Below the pieces are notes generated by a model. It saw only the letters and a list, made by a program, of their open reading frames with translations. It searched no databases and was not told the origin of the DNA. Source: Pseudobdellovibrionaceae bacterium (GTDB lineage Bacteria > Bdellovibrionota > Bdellovibrionia > Bdellovibrionales > Bdellovibrionaceae). From it: a DNA stretch of 62,980 nt. The stretch covers positions 26,012 to 88,991 of the forward strand of contig JABWCN010000023.1 in the NCBI GenBank assembly GCA_013359135.1, written 5' to 3'. Of this stretch, positions 45,173-51,259 are shown one piece after another. The translations under genes were made by a program, and so were the position numbers. Each line of letters starts with the position of its first letter. Positions within the stretch are counted from its first letter, which is position 1.

Positions 45173-48100
45173 CTAGTTTGATTTTGAACTTTGCTCGATC
45201 TCCCCGTCAATTTGTTTTTGAAGATCCCCAGGTGTTTCTTTACCATCCTGAGGAGTTTTCGAATTCTTAGAAAGATAAAACTTTTCTAACTCATCACGAA
45301 AGAACTTTTTTTCAAATTTTCGAAATGATTCAAATTTCACATTAGAGCCCAAAATTTCAACAATTTTATTGGATGTCTCTTGCTCTTGTTCCCGCATTTT
45401 TGCAAGCCCCTGCTCCAAGAAATCAGTTCTAACCGTTGCTTGTTTTTCATGTAAAGTCTTAACTAAAGTCTGGGCCATAGCTACAATCTGAATAGACTTT
45501 TCTTCTTCCACTCTCCATGTTTTCAACAAGTAATCCATAGCAGCTTTACCCCATCTATCATGATAACCTGAATCTAAATACATCTCTACAAACTGATCGG
45601 TATAAAGCACTAAGTCAACGTAAGTGTCTTTAACTTCTGGAACACGCTCTGGAGTGAATTTCTTTTCCTCTAGTTCTTGCTTCACTTTTTCAGCTTGTTG
45701 AGCAATTTGATCAGTTACAGGATTTTGCTTATTTTGCACATAATGATAAACCGACTCCCCTAAGAAAAAAACTAACATCCCAAGTGCCATCCCCATTCCA
45801 ATACTAAGATTACGATCTCGCTTCATCTTGTTTACAACTTGATGAGCATCTTTTTGCATTTGATGAGAACCTTTTTCGTCATTTAATTTTAATGATGACG
45901 TGTGCTCATTAAAAACTGCCTGAATCTGATTTAAAATATTTCCCGTAACAGCAGTTAGCTGACCGGAAGGAATAACTTTAACAATCTCTCGCTCAACAGC
46001 TTGATGAACCTCTTTGGCTACAACATCTTTACTTTTGTAAAGCTCTGACAGCATTGTCTCTTTGAGTTTGTTAAATTTTTCAACTTCTAGAATCTTCATT
46101 TGATTCATTTGCTCTTGACTAACTTGCAACATCTTCTTTTGATCAGCATCTAACTGATTCTTATAATTTGCTTTCTGATTTTCGTACTCTTTTTTTAAAT
46201 TTTCAATTTTATTAACATGTTCATTGTGCTGATACTGCATTTCACCAAGTTTTTTTTCTACCGCCTTAGTATCTTGAATTAAAAACTCCTGCTGTTTTTG
46301 TAGTTTTTTATTATCCTCAGTGAGCAGCTTATTTTGCTCACTAACTTGATTAAATTCTTTAGATACTTCCTCGTAGTCATTCTTTAATTGAACATGCTTT
46401 TTATCTAATTCCTCAAAAATAGCAGTTAAATCTTTCTTTCGATTTTCTAAAAGATCGTTTTCGCTGATTAAATTTTTATTTCTCTCAAAAAATTCTTGCT
46501 GCTTTTCCTTAGTCCAAATCTCCATCTCACGATTTTTTGTTGCTTCAAGCTGACTTAACTCTGTATCCTTGGAACTCCACTCTGACTCTTTTCTTTTTTG
46601 TTCGCTTTCAATCCACAACATCGTTTCACTACGCTTTTGCGACTCAAAGTTTCTGAGTTGAACCTCTCTATCAGTCCACTCTTTTTCATTTTTATGTCTA
46701 GTCTCTTCAACCCATTTTTCTGTTGTCAATCTTAATTGACGAACCCATTCCTCAGTTTCAGCACGAAGGCTTCTATTCCAAGATTCAGTTTCAGCACGAA
46801 GATTTTTATCCCAAGAGGCTGTCTCTTCTCTTAGTTTTCTATCCCATTCCTGCGTCTCTTTTCTAGTTTTATCAGCATATTCTTGAGCTTCAAGTTTGAT
46901 GTTTTTAGACCAAGAAGTAACATCTTCTCTTGTCTTTACTTCCCACTGGTTAGTTCTTGCCTTTAGCTCATCGGCCCAAACTTGAGTGTCTCTTTTAACC
47001 TTTTCTTCATGGTCAAATACTTGCTTTTCTCGAGCTTCTAACTCTTGAAGTTTTAACTCTTTTTCTTTTGTTAATTTAGAAAAAAACTCTTCTTCTTTTT
47101 TCTTTAACATTCCATGAAATTCAGATAATTCTTTATTTTTTCGTTCTTCTTCAAGTTCAAGATCATTATAACGAGTGGCAATATCGCGCTCTGCAAATTC
47201 TTGTCGTTTTTTTAAACGCTCATCAAATTCAATTCTTTTTTCATCCAAAGATTTGTCAAAGGATTCCCCTCGCGCGTGAAGTTCTTCTTCTAGAAGCTTT
47301 CTTCGTTCTTGAGTCTCTCGCTCTATTTTAAATTGCAAAGTTCTTTTTTCTTCTTCAAGGGATTTGAGTTCATGATTGTACTTCTCAATATCTTTCTTCA
47401 AAAATGAAATATCATTCTTCAAAAGATCAATTTGTGATTGAGAATCGTGCTTTATTTTTTCAACTTCAAGTTCAGCCTGAGAAAGTAATTTTTCACGATC
47501 AACTCTTGCACTTTCAGCGGCATCTGAAAGTAACAACTGAACTTTCTTCTGACCTTCTCTTTCAGTTCTTTGAATAATGGCTTCTTTTTCAGATTCAGCA
47601 TCTTTTAATACCGATCTTTTTAATTCTTCAATTTCTTGTAAAGCTTTGTTTTTATTAGCATCCATTTCCTGCTGGGCAAAATCCCGCATCTCGGCTACTT
47701 TACCACGAGCATCTTCAACAATTTTCTGAGCCAAAATCTCGTTTTTCGATAATAAATCTTGCGATTTTACATGAGCCTCTTCGAGTTTATTCTTATAAAA
47801 AACTTCAGCTTCATTCTTAAACTCATTGGCTTTATTGTAAACATCTTGAACTGCTTTTTCTGCATCTTTTTGTGCATCATTAATAATGCCAACACCTTTT
47901 CTTTTAGCATCTTGTATAATTTGAGCCGATTGAAGACTTGCATTTGATAAAATATCATCTTGCTTTAAAAGCATCTCTTGCTCTATGGATGAAGCCTTCT
48001 GCTCTGCTATTTTAATTAACTTATCATGGCCTTCTTGGGCTAATTTAACGATTTTCTGAGCTTCCGAGTGGGCACCCTGAACCAACCTCATCATTGATTC

Positions 48101-48472
48101 TTTTTCATCTTTAGGCAGCTGGCTTTTTACTATTTCTTCTTTTTTAAAACATTTCTCTAATAAGTTAAATGATAAATAAATTTCTGATTTTCCAATCTTT
48201 ACTTTATCCCCAGGCTCTACACTCACCGTTTTTTGCGAAGGTATCTTTTGGTCATTAACAAAAGTACCATTAGCAGACCCCTGATCCTCTATCCAAATTT
48301 TGTTATGCTTCAAGGTAACAATAAGATGAATACGACTGATATTCTGATCACTAAATGCTAAAGTAGCATCTAAAGATCTTCCTACCGTAAAAGTACTATC
48401 GTCGACTATTTTGTAGTCGACGTTTTCTCCTTCTTGAATAGTAACAATAAAAACTTGAATAGGTTTAGCCAT
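45173..48472 (-). CDS. FHA-domain, giant coiled-coil, single-TM protein
   Basis: A 1099-residue protein. Residues 1-100 are an FHA phosphothreonine-binding domain with all key residues (FTVGRSLDATLA, NISRIHLIV, DQGSANGTFVND). Residues 120-860 are continuous charged coiled coil. Within it, residues 499-587 carry Trp (once Tyr) exactly every 11 residues. A membrane span lies at about 889-908 (LSIGMGMALGMLVFFLGESV), followed by a 190-residue C-terminal domain that is probably periplasmic. The FHA end is therefore cytoplasmic. It follows the MotA-like gene by 22 nt. I know of no described protein with this order. It may be a tail or scaffold for the channel proteins, controlled by Ser/Thr phosphorylation. 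Confidence 0.9.
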   Translation of the reverse strand: MAKPIQVFIVTIQEGENVDYKIVDDSTFTVGRSLDATLAFSDQNISRIHLIVTLKHNKIWIEDQGSANGTFVNDQKIPSQKTVSVEPGDKVKIGKSEIYLSFNLLEKCFKKEEIVKSQLPKDEKESMMRLVQGAHSEAQKIVKLAQEGHDKLIKIAEQKASSIEQEMLLKQDDILSNASLQSAQIIQDAKRKGVGIINDAQKDAEKAVQDVYNKANEFKNEAEVFYKNKLEEAHVKSQDLLSKNEILAQKIVEDARGKVAEMRDFAQQEMDANKNKALQEIEELKRSVLKDAESEKEAIIQRTEREGQKKVQLLLSDAAESARVDREKLLSQAELEVEKIKHDSQSQIDLLKNDISFLKKDIEKYNHELKSLEEEKRTLQFKIERETQERRKLLEEELHARGESFDKSLDEKRIEFDERLKKRQEFAERDIATRYNDLELEEERKNKELSEFHGMLKKKEEEFFSKLTKEKELKLQELEAREKQVFDHEEKVKRDTQVWADELKARTNQWEVKTREDVTSWSKNIKLEAQEYADKTRKETQEWDRKLREETASWDKNLRAETESWNRSLRAETEEWVRQLRLTTEKWVEETRHKNEKEWTDREVQLRNFESQKRSETMLWIESEQKRKESEWSSKDTELSQLEATKNREMEIWTKEKQQEFFERNKNLISENDLLENRKKDLTAIFEELDKKHVQLKNDYEEVSKEFNQVSEQNKLLTEDNKKLQKQQEFLIQDTKAVEKKLGEMQYQHNEHVNKIENLKKEYENQKANYKNQLDADQKKMLQVSQEQMNQMKILEVEKFNKLKETMLSELYKSKDVVAKEVHQAVEREIVKVIPSGQLTAVTGNILNQIQAVFNEHTSSLKLNDEKGSHQMQKDAHQVVNKMKRDRNLSIGMGMALGMLVFFLGESVYHYVQNKQNPVTDQIAQQAEKVKQELEEKKFTPERVPEVKDTYVDLVLYTDQFVEMYLDSGYHDRWGKAAMDYLLKTWRVEEEKSIQIVAMAQTLVKTLHEKQATVRTDFLEQGLAKMREQEQETSNKIVEILGSNVKFESFRKFEKKFFRDELEKFYLSKNSKTPQDGKETPGDLQKQIDGEIEQSSKSN
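46712..46978 (-). repeat. Hendecad (11-residue) Trp repeat region in the FHA coiled-coil gene
   Basis: Residues 499-587 have aromatic residues at 499, 510, 521, 532 (Tyr), 543, 554, 565, 576 and 587, all exactly 11 apart, in units like TESWNRSLRAE. In DNA this is a degenerate 33-bp repeat with recurring TTCAGCACGAAG blocks. Confidence 0.92.
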
Positions 48473-48494
48473 ATAGCAACTTCCTAAAATTTAA

Positions 48495-49427
48495 TTATGA
48501 AACTTTAACTTTTTTAATTTCATCAAACTCACGAGTTCTTTGGCCTTTAGCGAGCTCAAGCCTGATAGACTCTTCAGCTAAAGCCTCTTGAGGATCCTTA
48601 TGTTCGTCAAAGGGTTTTTCATTGGAAGGATACTCGTTATTATCGCTACGATACCAAAGTAAATCCAAAGAGCTTTCAAATCTATCAATCATCGAAACAA
48701 AAACTCTATCTGGAGAAAATGTCACATTTATAAAATTCAGCATCAACGAAAAGGTGATTCCGAAAATTGATGATGACATGGCATATGAAATCTCAAACAA
48801 AAAACGATCCATGACGTTCTTTGTACTATCCATATCTTGTAGATTCATTCCACCAAGTTCAGGTAACCCTTTAGCAATACCAATAAAAGTTCCAAGAATT
48901 CCAGCTACGACAAACAAACCTGGCAAAATAGAAACTATGTCATTCAAACTTGAAATAGGAAACACACCAAATACCCTATTAAAACATGGATTGTGATGAA
49001 ATGTGGCTTTTGTGATATGTAAAAGTTTTGGAGTGTCTTGTGTCCACTTTAAAAATTTTAGTTGTTTAATAATGTCTTTAACAAGCCACGCACAACCTTG
49101 CTTAACCAAAAACACTCTATCACTCCAACCCATTACTTTATCAGTACGTCTACGAAGCATACGATCTCTTAAATCAAAAACTTCATAATAGGTCTTCTCT
49201 AGCATTTTTTTTGACAAAACATAAAAAGACACATTTCCCGGAGTGCTCCCAGGCTTTTCAGTTTCCATAAAGTGGGAGACTCGTTTTTCAAACTCTCTAG
49301 AAAACCATTCGTGACGCTTCACTGTGTACCAGATCATCACTCTCAAAAAAGCTCCCACACAAAACACAGCACCCATAAAGTAAGGAAGTGAGAGTATAAA
49401 ATATTCCGTAAAAGTTTTTGCTGCCAT
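48495..49427 (-). CDS. MotA/TolQ/ExbB-family (ZorA-like) proton-channel subunit
   Basis: The ATG at 49427 lies 8 nt after AGGAG and is preferred over a TTG two codons upstream. The 310-residue protein has TM1 at about 10-32, a cytoplasmic region of 130 residues, then paired segments at about 163-187 (ISILPGLFVVAGILGTFIGI-like; it contains VAGILGTFIGIAKGLPEL) and 208-235 (FLFEISYAMSSSIFGITFSL). This is the MotA/TolQ/ExbB channel pattern. It differs from flagellar MotA in having only about three spans and no charged torque loop that I can recognise. It stands between a MotB/ZorB-like gene (18 nt) and the FHA gene (22 nt). Confidence 0.85.
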   Translation of the reverse strand: MAAKTFTEYFILSLPYFMGAVFCVGAFLRVMIWYTVKRHEWFSREFEKRVSHFMETEKPGSTPGNVSFYVLSKKMLEKTYYEVFDLRDRMLRRRTDKVMGWSDRVFLVKQGCAWLVKDIIKQLKFLKWTQDTPKLLHITKATFHHNPCFNRVFGVFPISSLNDIVSILPGLFVVAGILGTFIGIAKGLPELGGMNLQDMDSTKNVMDRFLFEISYAMSSSIFGITFSLMLNFINVTFSPDRVFVSMIDRFESSLDLLWYRSDNNEYPSNEKPFDEHKDPQEALAEESIRLELAKGQRTREFDEIKKVKVS

Positions 49428-49444
49428 ATCCAAATCTCCTTTAA

Positions 49445-51106
49445 TTATTTTTTTCCATCCATACCGAAACGAATAATCACACGTTGGGATTTTTTACAGT
49501 CGTTGATTGAACAAAAATCCTTTCCTTGTGGTACGTTTTTCACTTTCATGACCTCTAAAAAGCTACGTCCAGAGACTTTCATCACAGGGAACATATCTTT
49601 TTGGTGATCAAATTCCATACTTTTATCATCGATGATGTGATTAAATATGGACTTTGCACGTTGATAACTTAAATCCATGTTGTACTTTAAAGCCTGTTTA
49701 TCTTTTCTTGCTGATGAATTAGGATCTACGTACTTACCTTTGTAAGTTGGAGATGCAAATCCAACAATTTCTACAGCTGAAATCTTATCTTTAACCTTAT
49801 TATTTCCAAATAATGACTTGGCATACACTGGCATAGCCTTTTCAAGAATTGCCTTCATATCACCATTGAGTTTAGACGACCCTGTTTCAAAGTAAGAATC
49901 ACCAAAATCCAGCATCACTTCACCTGTCTGCAAATCAATATCAGCTTTGATTCCAGCTTTTTCAAATCCTTTTTTAATTTCTTTTGCTACATCTTTTCTT
50001 AAGTCTCTTTCCTCAAGTGCTTTCTTTAGTTCTTTATCCTTACTGTGCAGATCATTTGAAAGACCAGCTATACGATCTTGCATCTCTTTTTCTTTTTGAG
50101 CAGCTCTGGCTTTAAACTCAGCTTCTTTTTTGGCTCGTTCAGCAGCCCCTAATTTGTGTTTACCTAGTTCATCATCAAAAGCCTTACGATCTCTTTCTTT
50201 TTCAAGAGCATATTGCTTTTTTAAATCTCCAATCTTCTGATTGTATTCGCCTTCTACATTATTCAATTTATTTTTTAAAGCAGAAGCCTCACCCGCTTTA
50301 TTAGACAACTCAGCTTGAGTTTGAGCTAGATCTGTTGATAGTTTTCCTAATTTCTGCTGAGTCTGATTGAGTTCTTGTTGGTAGCTCTGATTAGCCTCAT
50401 TTAACTGATCAATTTTTGACTGATTATCTTGTTTAAGCTGAGCCATTCTCTTTTCATAGGCTTGCTTTGTAATTTCTTTATTCTTCAAAGCTTCCTTAAG
50501 GGCATCCATTTTATTTTCTAAGTTTTCTTGAATCTTAGCAATTTTAACTTCGCCTTCTTCAATCAATTTCTTTTTGTTCTCAACATCTTGATTGAGCTTA
50601 GAAATTTGTTCGTCTTGAGAGTCGATAGTATCATCTTGTTCTTCGATAATATCATCACGTTTTTTAATTTTTGTTTTAGATAATACGTTTGCATTAATCA
50701 TATTACGTACCATCTGTTGGTACTGATTCAGTGCTTGTTCTTTTTTTGAGTTTTCATTAAAAGCCTGTCTCAACTTTTCTTTTTCATCCTTGGCTTCTTC
50801 TTTAAGAAGAACCAATTTATCCATAAGTTCTTGGTATGATTTCTCTTCTGAAGAATCAGCTTCTTTTTTAAGATAATCTTTCTTAATAGAATCATACATT
50901 TTAAGCTGAGCTTTTAGATCTTGAACTTCCATTTTTAAATTCTGATTATCTACTTGTTGTTTCATCCCGTTAGTCCCCGTACGCAGCGAAGACGTTACAT
51001 AAAGTAAAAGAAAAATAGTTGACAATCCCAGGAATAAATCAGAATAGGAAGTCCAAAAGTGGCCGTCATCACTGTGATTCTTATGTTTATCGTAATTAAA
51101 TGACAT
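49445..51106 (-). CDS. MotB/ZorB-like stator subunit with long coiled coil and OmpA domain
   Basis: I start at the ATG at 51106, which has GAGGA 5 nt upstream. The 553-residue protein has a single N-terminal span (YSDLFLGLSTIFLLLYV) with Asp23 at its start, the position of the proton-carrying Asp of MotB/ZorB. About 330 residues of periplasmic coiled coil follow. The OmpA/MotB peptidoglycan-binding domain comes last (VMLDFGDSYFETGSSKL, IVGFASPTYKG, NMDLSYQRAKSIFNHII). Flagellar MotB is about 300 residues with no such coil. It is the first gene of the operon, divergent from the haem-barrel gene at 51260. Confidence 0.88.
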   Translation of the reverse strand: MSFNYDKHKNHSDDGHFWTSYSDLFLGLSTIFLLLYVTSSLRTGTNGMKQQVDNQNLKMEVQDLKAQLKMYDSIKKDYLKKEADSSEEKSYQELMDKLVLLKEEAKDEKEKLRQAFNENSKKEQALNQYQQMVRNMINANVLSKTKIKKRDDIIEEQDDTIDSQDEQISKLNQDVENKKKLIEEGEVKIAKIQENLENKMDALKEALKNKEITKQAYEKRMAQLKQDNQSKIDQLNEANQSYQQELNQTQQKLGKLSTDLAQTQAELSNKAGEASALKNKLNNVEGEYNQKIGDLKKQYALEKERDRKAFDDELGKHKLGAAERAKKEAEFKARAAQKEKEMQDRIAGLSNDLHSKDKELKKALEERDLRKDVAKEIKKGFEKAGIKADIDLQTGEVMLDFGDSYFETGSSKLNGDMKAILEKAMPVYAKSLFGNNKVKDKISAVEIVGFASPTYKGKYVDPNSSARKDKQALKYNMDLSYQRAKSIFNHIIDDKSMEFDHQKDMFPVMKVSGRSFLEVMKVKNVPQGKDFCSINDCKKSQRVIIRFGMDGKK

Positions 51107-51259
51107 TTTATCCTCGTTTTTTTTCTTCTGCATTTATTTCGATCAAATGCGACTTTTACTAAATAGCACTCTTACATTTTAAAAAAAAATTCGACCTAGG
51201 ACTTGTTTTTTTAATAACTTCTTCTTGATTTTAGTCTAGCTTTGAAAAAAGATATTCAC

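Follow-up and report, generated by a model that had tools for sequence, protein, structure and literature searches.

In designed Trp-zipper coiled coils, which are pentamers built from heptads, tryptophan occupies core positions. Among natural proteins, FilP and Scy of Actinobacteria are long coiled coils made largely of hendecads, and their rods grew by the addition of further hendecads (PMC9858780). Because hendecads draw the core side chains together, such coils need small residues (Ala) or a higher oligomer, and large core side chains are accommodated by a higher oligomer or by an off-axis placement (PMC9858780). Hendecad coiled coils are also tied to an ion-driven rotary machine in the peripheral stalks of rotary ATPases (PMC6131620), and in the Zorya system ZorA forms an elongated cytoplasmic rod of five helices, that is, a pentamer (PMC11890865). 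Here we describe an FHA-domain protein of a Pseudobdellovibrionaceae bacterium (GCA_013359135.1, contig JABWCN010000023.1), encoded beside a ZorAB-like gene pair, whose predicted long coiled coil carries a ladder of tryptophans at hendecad spacing. The window, to which all nucleotide positions of this locus refer, is the whole analyzed stretch of 62,980 nucleotides.

The MotB-MotA-FHA locus

The gene for the FHA protein lies directly downstream of genes for a MotA-like and a MotB-like protein, in the order MotB-MotA-FHA (45173-51133), and the following features were recognized in the three products.

49445..51133, minus strand: MotB-like protein of 562 aa with MotB-plug/OmpA-type regions and a transmembrane Asp (YSD); PADLOC ZorB1 E=2e-29, weak Pfam MotB_plug and OmpA matches
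48495..49433, minus strand: MotA-like protein of 312 aa; PADLOC ZorA1 E=1.4e-11 over residues 165-262, PDB 8qyh (ZorA) E=2.8e-4
45173..48472, minus strand: FHA-coiled-coil membrane protein with the Trp ladder, 1099 aa, from the open reading frame
48191..48388, minus strand: FHA domain, residues 29-94, with GRS, SRxH and NGT motifs; Pfam FHA E=4.8e-16
46988..48145, minus strand: N-terminal coil, mostly hendecad, residues 110-495; spectral peaks of 3.68, 3.71, 3.63 and 3.66 in consecutive blocks
46166..46513, minus strand: post-ladder coil, heptad, residues 654-769; spectral peak 3.51
45737..45802, minus strand: predicted single transmembrane helix, residues 891-912; from the sequence, the hydropathy maximum lying at the corresponding place in named relatives, and a helix in the model
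45248..45736, minus strand: C-terminal helical domain, putatively periplasmic, residues 913-1075; family alignment, AlphaFold mean pLDDT 85

The MotA-like protein is similar to ZorA over the channel part and stops shortly after it, without the ZorA tail; in the MotB-like protein, the membrane Asp (YSD) is kept in 10 relatives. The PADLOC matches for a ZorA-/ZorB-type pair are significant, but the NCBIfam scores fall far below the curated cut-offs. In this protein the membrane helix and the OmpA-like domain of the MotB-like chain are also separated by a coiled region of unusual length (~residues 60-390). When genome contigs were scanned, the whole FHA protein returned nothing and an alignment of MotA returned the named relatives. 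The trio is kept across the Bdellovibrionaceae: the ten relatives studied closely have it, as do most of the named loci, B. bacteriovorus strain kdesi among them. Two MAGs that bear the labels Actinomycetota and Streptomyces griseus (L046, L063) contain MotA relatives too; since these share 62-70% identity with this family, the labels probably reflect binning contamination. The eight neighbouring proteins tested gave no PADLOC match, neither to the defense genes ZorC/ZorD or ZorE nor to any other. Literature searches returned no description of a MotB-MotA-FHA locus, which does not in itself prove that none exists.

The FHA motifs (GR, S, H, NG) are present in the protein and in 14 relatives, 15 sequences altogether. 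The longest FHA-like protein seen, with 1294 residues, is encoded downstream of a MotA relative in L065 (6884-10768). Because basic residues lie on the N-terminal side of the predicted membrane helix, the coil and the FHA domain would be cytoplasmic according to the positive-inside rule. Fully extended, the coil of ~770 residues would reach ~115 nm, a figure computed from the residue count at 1.48 Å per residue. The C-terminal domain is kept across the family, with T88, E120, K155 and E160 of the aligned segment invariant, and no PDB fold resembled it convincingly (Foldseek best E 1.6; VIA-align Z at most 5.7). A promoter scan of the region remained at chance level.

The aromatic ladder and its periodicity

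Within the coil, aromatic residues recur in an array composed of two kinds of repeat.

46505-46987, minus strand: full array, residues ~496-656
46691..46987, minus strand: nine plain hendecads, residues 496-594, with Trp (Tyr at 532) at position d
46752..46816, minus strand: recent-looking 33-bp tandem duplication, comprising the hendecads from residues 551 and 562; TRF period 33, 2.0 copies, 87% matches
46517..46714, minus strand: two 33-residue units, residues 587-652, with Trp spacing 12+21, found in all six genus members

Tryptophan stands at residues 499, 510, 521, 543, 554, 565, 576 and 587 of the FHA protein and tyrosine at 532, always at a spacing of 11, and the corresponding codons extend on the minus strand from W499 (46976-46978) to W587 (46712-46714). 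The nine positions and the interval 46712-46978 given in the preliminary description proved exact when the codons were checked, and the coil is otherwise poor in Trp, as it had remarked, with zero Trp in residues 110-480 and 660-885. Residues 480-660 were shuffled 100,000 times, and W/Y runs at spacing 11 then reached at most 6 members, versus the 9 observed. Beyond W587 the series goes on, which the preliminary description did not mention, with W599, W620, W632 and W653 at spacings of 12, 21, 12 and 21; this stretch consists of two 33-residue units with Trp spacing 12+21, and the residue number of every ladder aromatic, W599-W653 included, leaves a remainder of 4 or 5 on division by 11, in one register. 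In the plain hendecads position a is occupied by Thr, d by Trp and h by Leu or Thr, which fits a 3-4-4 core. In the 33-residue units Trp switches between d and e, and h frequently carries Lys, Arg or Glu, which makes for a poor core there. ILVMF residues account for 15% of the ladder versus 23-24% of the adjoining coil blocks, Trp being the main hydrophobe of the ladder, and Ala accounts for 5% versus 11-12% in residues 110-330.

The hydrophobic residues of the ladder give a spectral peak at 3.67-3.68 in this genome, where a hendecad corresponds to 11/3 = 3.667, in keeping with the hendecad coil proposed earlier for the aromatic repeat; in the other five genomes of the genus the peak lies at 3.64-3.68, Ala left out. 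Periodicity near 3.67 extends over residues 110-653, with some dip at ~330-440, and the peak is at 3.51 after that, so the ladder ends at the transition from hendecad to heptad coil. Residues 120-230 weakly match profile models of DivIVA/Wag31, ATP synthase b and the T3SS stator, and this was counted as an independent hendecad signal. In the AlphaFold single-chain model, residues 440-720 form one unbroken helix with a mean pLDDT of 89 (79-95 across the ladder), and the region is accordingly predicted to be ordered rather than disordered, in line with the coil of the preliminary description.

The hydrophobic moment calculated without Trp and Tyr points to the Trp side in this genome (G000, p 0.0055) and in that of a relative (G003, p 0.016), and is non-significant in this respect in the other four genomes of the genus. 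A simple straight-bundle geometry gives Cb-Cb distances at d of 4.4-7.4 Å in dimers, depending on core orientation, and of 6.0-8.4 Å in trimers to pentamers; trimers to pentamers can hold Trp at d or e under this geometry, dimers can hold it off-axis, and no one state is singled out.

Length variation and age of the repeats

An orthologue of the FHA protein occurs in 6/6 genomes of the genus (G000, the present one, and G001-G005), with Trp in register in all. Gaps in the six-genome alignment are confined to the ladder and the end of the C-terminal tail (~27 residues), and 895 flanking residues are gap-free across the six genomes at pairwise identities of 56-95%. The last ladder Trp is found at 565, 620, 620, 631, 642 and 653, and relative to the shortest the ladders differ by 0, +55, +55, +66, +77 and +88 residues, all multiples of 11; no ladder indel of another kind was found among the six. 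The array ends in two 33-residue units (12+21) in every genome and starts with a third such unit in 4/6. The plain hendecads, each a full 11-residue step and the 33-residue units being left out of the count, number 0 (G003), 2 (G004, G005), 3 (G002), 4 (G001) and 8 (G000), and the tree based on the flanks pairs G000 with G003, the two extremes of copy number (8 vs 0). The strict nine-member run is present only in G000, the orthologues carrying shorter runs: of the 11-residue spacing expected in orthologues, the register is kept and the exact spacing is partly lost. The selection that had been suspected behind the regularity is supported in the form of a constraint on register, Trp being in register in all genus members and the length changing by 11s alone.

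The search for the Trp ladder took in 140 genomes of the order, and in the 134 outside the genus it was not found, bar one stop-interrupted fragment. Four-member runs at spacing 11 were seen in two FHA relatives, one of Tyr in L058 (6879 onward, ORF residues 425-458; run p 0.002) and one of Tyr/Phe in L049 (6933 onward, ORF residues 385-418; p 0.005), both values before correction for 37 sequences; at most they suggest something ladder-like in distant FHA-coil relatives.

At the DNA level, the units from residues 551 and 562 share 79% of their nucleotides and are the sole pair with a recent look, whereas the remaining neighbour units are 39-61% identical, versus 32% (sd 9%) when in-frame 33-bp pairs are drawn at random from the coil. 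The recent 33-bp duplication envisaged in the preliminary description therefore applies to this pair, the other neighbours having diverged. Species-wise concerted evolution of the units was not supported, since mean nucleotide identity within genomes equals that between genomes (0.51). As neighbour units are 39-61% identical and no closer within than between genomes, the array appears to be mostly old with its Trp retained, which argues for constraint. The terminal 33-residue units keep every Trp in the six genomes, and U2 units show 42-75% DNA identity between species.

Readings of the ladder and relation to known systems

The reading that we favor, with a probability of about 0.58, is that the ladder is a modular Trp hendecad segment of a long, near-straight coiled-coil stalk, in which Trp lies in or beside the interface, insertions and deletions of whole hendecads are tolerated, and the stalk probably partners the MotA/MotB-like motor. 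The FHA protein would be anchored through its single membrane helix, close to the C-terminus, with the coil reaching into the cytoplasm and the FHA domain at the distal end. Every 11 residues of the ladder would make three helix turns, and Trp would repeatedly enter or flank the helix-helix interface in a segment poor in other hydrophobics. Gain or loss of a whole hendecad would change the length by 1.6 nm and leave the rotational register between the hendecad and heptad halves unchanged; such indels would be tolerated because only they keep the register. Coiled-coil assembly and burial of Trp are presumed here, the model being of a single chain. The stalk would probably work together with the ion-driven MotA/MotB-like (ZorAB-like) motor encoded next to it, replacing the rod carried in ZorA's own chain; gene order is what links the FHA protein with the motor, and the partnership is proposed on that ground. 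Given that ZorA has a long cytoplasmic rod in Zorya, a separate stalk protein is a plausible functional counterpart of that rod by analogy.

The Trp stripe had also been considered a stacking or docking surface; if it were exposed and docked a repeated partner, whether another coil or a cargo protein, the number of partner sites would follow from the number of repeats. Trp is retained while the residues around it diverge, the non-aromatic moment is not clearly toward the Trp face in four genomes, and G003, the sister of G000, is devoid of additional plain hendecads, as if the number of sites were adjustable. We nevertheless regard docking as rather unlikely: Trp fits core position d in the plain hendecads, the rest of the helix turns its hydrophobic side to Trp in G000 and G003, the segment without Trp would be nearly coreless amid an otherwise continuous coil, and no candidate partner was found. 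In all, the ladder suggests a modular coiled-coil segment rather than a binding site.

Wide variation in copy number, even between these sisters (8 vs 0 extra hendecads), together with one visibly young tandem pair, would also be expected if the array arose mainly by replication slippage in a permissive segment where in-frame, in-register 33-bp copies survive, neither Trp nor length having a specific role. This is improbable in our judgment, since most units are old (39-61% nucleotide identity between neighbours) and yet Trp stays in place, and the terminal units keep all their Trp in six genomes despite the low DNA identity of U2. The periodicity of 11 residues with Trp on one side recalls the 11-mer lipid-binding helices of perilipin and alpha-synuclein, and a monomeric amphipathic 11/3 helix lying on the membrane was considered. 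It was set aside on charge and appears very improbable, given a net charge of 0 to -6, 44-48% charged residues, a low hydrophobic moment, and the position of the segment inside a long coil whose neighbouring parts show standard coil periodicity.

The modular stalk segment has a more speculative extension, which we consider doubtful, namely that the Trp hendecads make the length or stiffness of a separate ~100-nm stalk tunable, that this stalk belongs to a ZorAB-like rotary motor in predatory bacteria and related species, and that the copy number is selected for in different species. The close relatives provide a natural series of 0, 2, 2, 3, 4 and 8 extra hendecads between rigidly collinear flanks, on which one can test the growth of a coiled coil without loss of register and the part that Trp plays at an interface of hendecads. 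The ladder further points to the conserved MotB-MotA-FHA locus of the Bdellovibrionaceae, which is like a Zorya motor and showed no defense effectors among the eight neighbours tested.

As in Zorya, a long cytoplasmic helical rod would belong to the locus, and the two upstream genes resemble those of ZorA and ZorB (PMC11890865); however, the rod of Zorya is within the ZorA chain, whereas here it would be a protein of its own, with an FHA domain and a membrane helix, beside a MotA of 312 aa without a tail, and Zorya has ZorC/ZorD or ZorE effectors, for which the eight neighbours tested gave no PADLOC match. Compared with rotary ATPase stalks, the coil of the A-type enzyme measures ~14 nm (PMC6131620) versus the ~115 nm computed for the FHA coil. 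Residues 158-221 weakly match ATP synthase b and archaeal subunit H, with scores far below curated cut-offs, and homology is not claimed. We know of no Trp ladder in the peripheral stalks of rotary ATPases. FilP and Scy have Ala-rich dimeric hendecad cores and a DivIVA-like N-terminus (PMC9858780), in contrast to the 5% Ala, recurring Trp, FHA N-terminus and membrane anchor found here; the DivIVA-like N-terminal motif of that family is lacking here, and the weak Wag31 match is confined to coil residues 120-230. The designed Trp-zippers share the placement of Trp at coiled-coil core positions, in designed heptads as opposed to natural hendecads with one Trp per 11 residues. Taken together, neither hendecad coiled coils nor their lengthening by added hendecads is new; what is unusual here is the recurring Trp with register-locked length variation.
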